A stretch of DNA of 64,000 nt from Corynebacterium sp. J010B-136 (lineage in GTDB: Bacteria; Actinomycetota; Actinomycetes; Mycobacteriales; Mycobacteriaceae). Position numbers and translations under genes: made by a program. A model generated the notes under the pieces. It was not told where the DNA came from. It was given only the letters and a program-made list of their open reading frames with translations, and searched no databases. The stretch is taken from the NCBI RefSeq assembly GCF_002967075.1, contig NZ_PUGE01000003.1, positions 124,001 through 188,000 on the forward strand, read 5' to 3'. Below are positions 16,924-18,688 of the stretch, in pieces. Position 1 is the stretch's first letter; every line of letters begins with the position of its first letter.

Positions 16924-17276
16924 ACCTTTCGGTGTTGCTTTATCCCTCACAGTGGGCGGAAGTTCTAAACGAACTTCCGCGGAAAGCTAAGTTAGCCGGG
17001 GTAGAGGTTGAGAACATTGCCGTTGAGCAACTCTATAGTGCGTGCGAGAAAGAGAATGTGCTTGTCGATGACTACTGGCTGCGCCATGGCCACGCACCCA
17101 CCGGCGCTGAGGTCTACCGCATCATTGTCAACGGCGCATCGACCTTGCCGCTCAATAAATGCGCGGCGGCAGTCGCGGAGGCCTTCCCCGCAGATACCAT
17201 CTGGTATGGCACCGCGGAGATTGGTCATACCGAGTTTGGCCTCGGCACGACCTTGGCGTGGACTAAGTCCCCTTAA
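16908..17276 (+). CDS. Conserved-looking hypothetical protein
   Basis: 122-aa acidic protein that I do not recognise. No signal peptide or membrane segment; mixed alpha/beta composition with a central TGAEVYRIIVNGASTLPLNKC stretch. Its start lies inside trmD (overlap 16 bases) with GGAGGGG just upstream, so it is probably co-translated with trmD. Its stop overlaps the convergent rtcB gene by 14 bases. The codon use looks like that of its neighbours, so I take it as real. Function unknown. Confidence 0.7.
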   Translation: MDISVDLSVLLYPSQWAEVLNELPRKAKLAGVEVENIAVEQLYSACEKENVLVDDYWLRHGHAPTGAEVYRIIVNGASTLPLNKCAAAVAEAFPADTIWYGTAEIGHTEFGLGTTLAWTKSP

Positions 17277-18468
17277 CGTTAAGCACCTGCCGAAGCTCGT
17301 GCTTTACCTCCACGAGCTTCGCAGCGTCTTCCATGACCTGGTCAATGTCTTTGTAGGCATCGGGAATTTCATCAATCCATTCCTTGCCCGGACGGTAGAC
17401 AATGCCTTTCATCCGCGAATCCAGATCCTCAGCAGTAAAGCGCTTGCGTGCTTCGGTCCGAGAGTAGCGTCGACCAGCGCCGTGCGGTGCCGAGCGCAGG
17501 GCAGGGGCAAAACCCTTGCCTTCAACCACATAGGAACGCGTGCCCATGGAACCAGGGATTAGGGCTTTCACGCCGACATCGGCAAGCACTGCTCCCTTGC
17601 GCGTTAACCACACGTCCTTACTAAAGTGCTCTTCCTTGACCGTGTAGTTGTGGTGGCAGTTAATGCGTTCTTCCTCCGCCACCTCGGCGCCGATGAAATC
17701 GCCCAAGCACAGCGCGAACCTATCCATCATCTCTTCGCGGTTGAGGTAGGCAAAGTGCTGTGCCCAGTGCAGTTCGGTGATATAAGCATCAAACTCTGCC
17801 GTGCCTTCGGTCAAGTAGGCAAGATCCCTATCCGGCAGACGTACCCAGTGCTTATCGCACTGCGCCTGTGCTGCAGCGATGTGCTTCTGCGCAATCTTAT
17901 TGCCCACGCCACGTGAACCAGAGTGCAAGAACATCCAGACACGGTCTTTCTCATCCAAGCACAGTTCAATGAAGTGGTTGCCGCCGCCGAGTGAACCGAG
18001 CTGCTGACGCCACTTCGGCGAATGCGAAAGGTCAACGCCATCGCGCTCGGCCATCTGCGCGAGCTCGCGTGCGCGGCGATCTGCGGATCCCTCTAGGTGC
18101 CACTCGTTGTAGTTGCCAGGGGATAGCGGAATGGCTGCTTCAATGGCATCGCGCAGCGGGACTAAATCTTCCGGCAGGTCGCTGGCGTGAAACTGTGTGC
18201 GCACGCCAATCATGCCGCAACCGATATCCACACCGACGGCAGCTGGGATCACCGCGCCGATGGTTCCGAAGACCGTGCCGACAGATGAACCCATACCAAC
18301 GTGCGCATCCGGCATCAGCGCCACATGTGGGTGGATAAAAGGCATGCCAGCAAGTTGCTTGGCCTGGGTCATTACAGCTGGTTCGAGCACGGAAGCAAAA
18401 GCTTCCACGTGGACTTTCTCATTGAACTTGCGTGGTGCGGCCTTCTTCGGGCCGCGAGAACGAGACAT
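17263..18468 (-). CDS. rtcB: RNA ligase RtcB
   Basis: GTP- and Mn-dependent ligase that joins RNA 2',3'-cyclic phosphate (or 3'-phosphate) ends to 5'-OH ends; acts in RNA repair and healing. 401 aa. Metal and catalytic residues are in place: Asp81 and Cys84 (VDIGCG), His165 (GGGNHFIE), His182 (LHSGSRGVGN), His272/273 (CHHNY) and the guanylylated His329 (SAPHGAGR). No rtcA or rtcR lies beside it, unlike the proteobacterial operon. ATG with GGGAGA seven bases upstream. It is preceded by a leader ORF and a strong terminator, so expression may depend on readthrough. Confidence 0.95.
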   Translation of the reverse strand: MSRSRGPKKAAPRKFNEKVHVEAFASVLEPAVMTQAKQLAGMPFIHPHVALMPDAHVGMGSSVGTVFGTIGAVIPAAVGVDIGCGMIGVRTQFHASDLPEDLVPLRDAIEAAIPLSPGNYNEWHLEGSADRRARELAQMAERDGVDLSHSPKWRQQLGSLGGGNHFIELCLDEKDRVWMFLHSGSRGVGNKIAQKHIAAAQAQCDKHWVRLPDRDLAYLTEGTAEFDAYITELHWAQHFAYLNREEMMDRFALCLGDFIGAEVAEEERINCHHNYTVKEEHFSKDVWLTRKGAVLADVGVKALIPGSMGTRSYVVEGKGFAPALRSAPHGAGRRYSRTEARKRFTAEDLDSRMKGIVYRPGKEWIDEIPDAYKDIDQVMEDAAKLVEVKHELRQVLNVKGT

Positions 18469-18489: not shown

Positions 18490-18531
18490 GGGTACAAAAC
18501 AAAAAACCGGCGTCAGCAGATGCTGCGCCGG
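18490..18531 (-). terminator. Intrinsic terminator between leader ORF and rtcB
   Basis: On the minus strand: CCGGCG-CAGC-ATCT-GCTG-A-CGCCGG, a 10-bp stem with one bulged A and a four-base loop, followed by TTTTTTGTTTTG. It lies 21-63 bases upstream of the rtcB ATG. Polymerase starting at the upstream promoter must pass it to express rtcB. Confidence 0.85.
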
Positions 18532-18561
18532 GAAACCATATTCTTGAAAAACTCAGACCAT

Positions 18562-18624
18562 TTAAGTCTCAGATTTTCTGCGCGCATGCGAAAAGAAGGA
18601 TAGTTGCAGCTTGTACAGATGCAT
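18562..18624 (-). CDS. 20-aa leader peptide ORF upstream of rtcB
   Basis: ATG-initiated ORF MHLYKLQLSFFSHARRKSET with an excellent ribosome-binding site (AAAGGAG, six bases before ATG). A weak hairpin (CTGAGAC / GTCTGAG with one mismatch) spans its stop codon and is followed by TTTTT, and a strong terminator follows 31 bases later. The layout promoter, short ORF with strong translation start, terminator, real gene is that of an attenuator. It shows no run of one amino acid, so the signal would not be a simple amino-acid shortage. It could also be a free-standing small protein. Confidence 0.5.
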   Translation of the reverse strand: MHLYKLQLSFFSHARRKSET

Positions 18625-18659
18625 TGCTTTCTCCTTTAGTCATGAACACGCGAAACCTA

Positions 18660-18688
18660 AACCTATCCCGTAGCGAGGGTTTTGGCAA
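18660..18688 (-). promoter_or_regulatory. Predicted promoter of the rtcB leader
   Basis: On the minus strand TTGCCA (18683-18688), 17-base spacer, TAGGTT (18660-18665). Transcription would begin about 30 bases before the leader ORF start. It faces away from tex. Confidence 0.5.

Follow-up and report, generated by a model that had tools for sequence, protein, structure and literature searches.

What is the role of a short open reading frame (ORF) and an intrinsic terminator that lie in front of rtcB, the gene of a predicted RNA ligase, in Corynebacterium sp. J010B-136? We analyzed the locus within a stretch of 64,000 nucleotides from this genome (contig NZ_PUGE01000003.1, positions 124,001 to 188,000), hereafter the window, and compared it with rtcB loci of other Actinomycetes. 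Judged from the sequences, a ribosome-mediated transcription attenuator probably controls rtcB and senses loss of functional tRNA-Gln. A predicted attenuator before rtcB is well supported, sensing of Gln-tRNA by the leader is moderately supported and RNA damage as the trigger is weakly supported. The original prediction had proposed a promoter, a 20-codon ORF led by a Shine-Dalgarno (SD) sequence, a terminator and rtcB with its own SD, and all of them are at the proposed places on the minus strand. The parts of the locus, in window coordinates, are:

18660..18688, minus strand: promoter-like element TTGCCA-N17-TAGGTT (TTGCCA 18688-18683; TAGGTT 18665-18660), read from the sequence and conserved in the close relatives L002-L004
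18631..18637, minus strand: SD of the leader ORF, AAAGGAG (SD score -9.8)
18562..18624, minus strand: leader ORF of 20 codons, MHLYKLQLSFFSHARRKSET plus stop (ATG at 18624, stop codon 18564-18562), with one Gln codon, at position 7
18582..18589, minus strand: putative 5' strand of the antiterminator, GC-A-UGCGC, leader codons 12-15, predicted to pair with the 5' arm of the terminator
18546..18578, minus strand: stop-codon hairpin (-12.6 kcal/mol), the putative inner hairpin of the antiterminator
18522..18528, minus strand: putative 3' strand of the antiterminator, GCGCAGC, within the 5' arm of the terminator, invariant in the alignment of L001-L004
18496..18531, minus strand: predicted intrinsic terminator, a 25-nucleotide hairpin (stem 18531-18507) with a T6GT4 tail, TTTTTTGTTTT (-17.9 kcal/mol), conserved in L002-L004
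18477..18480, minus strand: SD of rtcB, GGAG, read from the sequence
17263..18468, minus strand: rtcB, 401 amino acids (ATG at 18468), matching PF01139 and below the TIGR03073 release_rtcB cut-off

To what extent is this arrangement shared? A profile search found an RtcB match in 81 of 242 Corynebacterium genomes. The 78 rtcB loci examined comprise 61 loci of a main lineage, defined by full-length matches of at least 583 bits (the interrupted genes L060, L062 and L068 were admitted at 71% identity or more), and 17 lower-scoring loci. This boundary was chosen after the leaders were seen to split along the bit score and it is not sharp, as the lower-scoring L061 has an SD-led ORF containing RRQLHLQFMQ which exceeds the 60-codon limit of our search. 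L069 (contig edge), L070 and L220 (fragments) and G056 (a 31-residue match) were left uncounted. The outgroup consisted of 108 loci of other Actinomycetes from two collections, in which some species are possibly duplicated. A composition-blind pick, which took the ORF of 8-60 codons with the best SD and a start between -400 and -60, yielded an ORF for each of the 61 main loci, and the SD was strong in 53 of them; a strong SD was found in 31 of the 108 outgroup loci and in 3 of the 17 lower-scoring ones. After curation a leader was present in 56 of the 61 main loci (L017 and L028 being weak candidates), with peptides such as MRAYQLLQQLRRH..., MRFYQHLQLLQK..., MSRKQSYLHQQQL... and MRGNQQLKQQLLH... 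Conservation of the ORF, on which the original prediction depended, is accompanied by a bias for CAG and CAA in the leader frame: in 42 representatives, the stretch of codons 1-25 contains 134 such triplets in frame, compared with 8 and 26 in the two alternative frames. The gene tex is located next to rtcB in just 4 of the first 30 loci (flanks of 1.5 kb), therefore the leader is associated with rtcB rather than with the neighboring gene.

Which codons, then, could the leader read? Across the relatives, Gln clearly exceeds every other residue in enrichment at codons 4-16. In the composition-blind pick, 145 of the 1225 main-lineage residues (11.8%) are Gln. The share is 2.7% of 996 residues in the other Actinomycetes, and 3.6% each for ORFs picked on the opposite strand and for those from further upstream. 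Since the 61 main loci include close relatives, 42 representatives were drawn from them for the codon counts. At least one Gln was found in 41 of the 42 leaders and at least two in 35, the first Gln being codon 5 in 15 of them, and the share of Gln falls from 27% at codons 5-8 to 23% at 9-12, 14% at 13-16 and 7% at 17-20. At codons 4-16 Gln accounts for 20.7% in the 42 curated representatives compared with 3.2% in the background (17,891 codons from 44 long ORFs, all of them in the window), a 6.4-fold enrichment; the curated values of 14.3% and 20.7% are biased upward because the leaders were partly picked by eye, the blind value being 11.8%. The original prediction had noted that the peptide has no run of a single codon and had looked for a trigger other than starvation. 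This holds for the window peptide, but the strong enrichment of Gln at codons 4-16 in relatives makes a specific tRNA the likely signal. One could also imagine that low Gln-tRNA charging during glutamine or nitrogen starvation induces rtcB, as in amino-acid operons, and the enriched codons are indeed those of Gln. We nevertheless consider this improbable, as we know of no role of RtcB in Gln supply and in the leaders Gln codons are interspersed with those of His, Leu and Arg and form no pure runs. Starvation would have parallels in the genus, where the trp attenuator and a candidate ilvB attenuator sense amino acids (PMC1262725).

Some other rtcB loci deserve mention. Six genomes (L214-L219) have a second RtcB, 40-44% identical, before which no comparable Gln-rich leader was found (L217 offers only 195 nucleotides upstream). 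In L008 (G188), G080 and L051 (G191) rtcB is interrupted by a stop codon or a break in the frame, and the leader persists in L008 and L051. The RtcB matches of G061, G088 and G154 are interrupted near residues 77-87 inside open frames of 602-835 amino acids, a pattern that points to inteins close to the active-site motif; models of RtcB inteins exist in NCBIfam. L115 and L118, from one other actinomycete family, have mutually similar short upstream ORFs, MSTQLQRLSKPAFVEPAYG... and VQLQRMNPASFVEPTAYG..., possibly another type of leader.

Is the leader followed by a terminator in these loci as well? A hairpin with a T-tract within -250 to -5 of rtcB was found in 43 of the 61 main loci, 2 of the 17 lower-scoring loci and 17 of the 108 loci of other Actinomycetes. 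This frequency, together with the hairpin and T-tract in the window, argues against translational control, in which the downstream hairpin would mask the rtcB ribosome-binding site and translation of the leader would open it; we regard such control as the general explanation with very little confidence, even if in L041 and L050 the hairpin does include the rtcB SD GAGAAAGG. These two are the folded members of a C. striatum-like group that comprises eight loci (L041, L044-L048, L050 and L209), whose leaders, MMTYNNQPLGRFFKQLF or MMTHNNQPLGR(F/L)FKQLF, are followed by nested hairpins, the last of which covers that SD in both. This group may use a hairpin hiding the rtcB ribosome-binding site instead. 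In the window itself, the folding energy of the leader RNA is better than that of 200 of 200 shuffles (z -3.5). A generic promoter and terminator scan of the window missed both the leader promoter and the terminator, presumably owing to its match threshold and to the bulge in the stem, while a purpose-made finder of hairpins with T-tracts does report the terminator. A separate full promoter for rtcB downstream of the terminator is unlikely, since the gap from the T-tract to rtcB is just 27 nucleotides. No Rfam family scored above its gathering score in the window, and a tblastn search with the leader peptide gave no match among plasmids.

What could prevent formation of the terminator is best seen in the window locus (L001) and its three close relatives (L002-L004), all of which have tex next to rtcB. 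Their alignment keeps the promoter hexamers and spacing (TTGCCA/TTGATT-N17-TAGGTT/TAGCGT), the ORF, the block GC.TGCGCGCA near its end and the terminator arm CCGGCGCAGCA, and the intervening letters vary. The stop-codon hairpin is preserved despite different stem letters in L003 and L004, with -12.6, -13.1 and -9.9 kcal/mol in L001, L003 and L004 and 2, 0 and 0 of 500 shuffles as stable, respectively. When the RNA before codon 12 was masked, which mimics a stalled ribosome, and the 3' arm of the terminator was absent, in all four loci GC(A/G)UGCGC of the ORF enclosed the stop-codon hairpin by pairing with GCGCAGC in the terminator arm. Because they all fold alike around it, this hairpin, which had been described as weak and is indeed present, is best understood as the core of an antiterminator.

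Similar pairing is predicted outside these four loci. In a duplex test of the terminator 5' arm with the leader, the mean z was -1.41 relative to dinucleotide shuffles (29 loci; z was below -1 in 14 of them), and long pairings of unrelated sequence between arm and leader were found in L005, L015, L026 and L043. This test is blind to pairings that enclose a hairpin, therefore folding of the stalled state, with the ribosome at the first Gln codon, was done for 26 loci with 60 shuffles each. It favors the antiterminator (mean z 1.42, Fisher p 5.8e-9), with 12 of the 26 loci in the top 5%. In 23 of 26 loci the pairing strand is centered 7-42 nucleotides upstream of the leader stop codon, and Gln codons are concentrated before it: 70 of 354 codons before, 6 of 192 within and 6 of 111 after the strand (26 loci). 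Leaders, Gln codons, terminators and antiterminator pairing together support by comparison the shape of a transcription attenuator that was seen originally in the window alone.

Several observations weigh against an attenuator that reads Gln codons. Five of the 61 main loci (L022, L033, L038, L049 and L206) are without a convincing leader. Under the terminator rule, which asks for a hairpin of -12 kcal/mol or better with a T-tract, 13 of the 42 representatives have no terminator, and three more were judged non-terminators; the 13 are absent from all three pairing tests, and L025, L034 and L041 were dropped from the stalled-state and arm-swap tests. The stalled-state z is negative in 3 of 26 loci, and the arm-swap control, which uses leaders of other loci, shows a weaker effect (mean z -1.09, p 0.0023), with 6 of 26 loci ranked first. 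With the 3' arm included, the minimum-energy structure of the masked RNA is the terminator, so that the switch would have to be kinetic, like known attenuators. The antiterminator of the window is itself not above shuffles, with a duplex z of -0.21 and a stalled-state z of 1.02 equaled by 13 of 60 shuffles. The last result would also suit an unrelated small gene or small RNA which has its own terminator and happens to be situated upstream of rtcB without regulating it, as ORF and terminator could be self-standing. There is very little room for such a coincidence, though: the leader unit accompanies a single rtcB lineage even where tex is not adjacent, it is rare before other rtcB genes, and the peptides diverge in sequence while the early Gln codons persist.

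Other objections concern the signal. Codons 4-16 are also enriched in CAT (6.4-fold), CTA (4.4-fold), CTG (2.7-fold) and Arg codons, and the window leader holds a single Gln. In Pseudomonas aeruginosa, armZ encodes an RtcB-like product and has a leader-peptide attenuator, and a change of leader Gln3 or Phe4 gave less ArmZ in a Dcca mutant, i.e. one without the CCA-adding enzyme; neither tRNA-Gln nor tRNA-Phe reversed this effect by itself, and the two together did (PMC13041342). Could rtcB then be induced by any slow or inhibited ribosome, as a response to general translation stress in which tRNA-Gln is not the signal? The lone Gln of the window leader and the accompanying Leu, His and Arg fit this view, and armZ responds to ribosome-targeting antibiotics. 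A sensor of general stress, however, would have no need for a particular codon, and the 6.4-fold excess of Gln at codons 4-16 of the curated leaders and its peaked position speak against it; we therefore consider this explanation unlikely, if the most serious of those weighed here.

An attenuator sensing tRNA-Gln would work as follows. RNA polymerase would start about 25-30 nucleotides before the leader ORF. With ample tRNA-Gln the ribosome would reach the stop codon, melt the stop-codon hairpin and occupy the last part of the ORF, upon which the GC-rich terminator would form and rtcB would be off. A stall at the early Gln codon or codons would leave the end of the ORF free to pair with the terminator 5' arm around the stop-codon hairpin, and with this antiterminator formed rtcB would be transcribed.

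What would deplete tRNA-Gln? Loss of functional tRNA-Gln is the likeliest signal given the Gln codons of the leaders, the effect of Gln3 and Phe4 in armZ and the induction of rtcBA by broken tRNAs, via RtcR, in the Salmonella rsr-yrlBA-rtcBA operon (PMC7790460). Nucleases that cut tRNA exist in Actinobacteria, since VapC-mt11 of Mycobacterium tuberculosis cleaves tRNA-Gln(CUG) and tRNA-Leu(CAG) after GG in the anticodon loop (PMC6459853). The window genome has 50 tRNA places with 47 distinct sequences, among them one tRNA-Gln(CUG) and one tRNA-Gln(UUG), and both carry GG at this cleavage place. Most plausibly, tRNA-Gln would be lost through anticodon-loop cleavage that RtcB could mend. Missing CCA was rejected as a cause specific to Gln, as both tRNA-Gln genes are without encoded CCA but so are 27 of the 47 distinct tRNAs. 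VapC-type nucleases were rejected as a general trigger: PIN (PF01850) has no match in the window genome, and in the genus PIN is not associated with rtcB (17 of 81 genomes with rtcB, 47 of 161 without, Fisher p 0.22). One MazF-like match was found in the window genome. The window RtcB matches PF01139 over the whole profile (residues 35-400) with 385.1 bits (cut-off 27), by which ligase activity is predicted only, and scores 132.8 bits with TIGR03073 release_rtcB, the model of release-factor-associated RtcB, below the curated cut-off of 271.8. The divergent neighbor gene carries Tex domains by profile match.

If the attenuator is real, attenuation would serve RNA damage rather than amino-acid supply, tRNA damage could induce its own repair, and the Gln codon of the leader governing aminoglycoside tolerance in P. 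aeruginosa may be explained. Targets and repair signals of bacterial RtcB are poorly known outside RtcR-controlled operons, and a leader whose codons specify the tRNA raises a direct question, namely which nuclease attacks tRNA-Gln in corynebacteria. We tentatively propose, aware that the chances are somewhat below even, a codon-based readout of tRNA damage: cutting of tRNA-Gln (perhaps also tRNA-Leu and tRNA-His) would stall the ribosome on a Gln-rich leader and directly switch on the mending ligase with no protein sensor, in place of RtcR and in parallel to, or of common origin with, the Gln codon of armZ.

How does this compare with known systems? Among the papers listed by a literature search covering few subscription journals, none was seen to describe attenuation of rtcB, or a leader rich in Gln before it, in corynebacteria, and the text of PMC1262725 has no occurrence of "rtcB" or "glutamin". 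The actinobacterial trp, ilvB and leuS attenuators described there also combine a leader peptide with a terminator, and trp and leuS have an antiterminator, but they sense the amino acid of their own pathway whereas rtcB is not an amino-acid gene. The RtcR-controlled operon shares the kind of enzyme and, in Salmonella, induction by damaged tRNAs; there a CARF-domain activator binds tRNA fragments, while the sensor proposed here is the ribosome on the leader, and RtcR (PF06956) had no match in the window genome with a positive E. coli control. The claim that attenuation of an RNA-repair ligase had not been described was too strong in view of armZ, which shares an RtcB-like product, a short leader ORF, predicted intergenic terminators and proposed attenuation by ribosome stalling. 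ArmZ differs in acting as an anti-repressor of MexZ for an efflux pump and in lying beside prfH. The new elements here are an RtcB under the TIGR03073 cut-off, enrichment of Gln in the leader throughout Corynebacterium and a genome in which no RtcR was found, with armZ as the nearest precedent.
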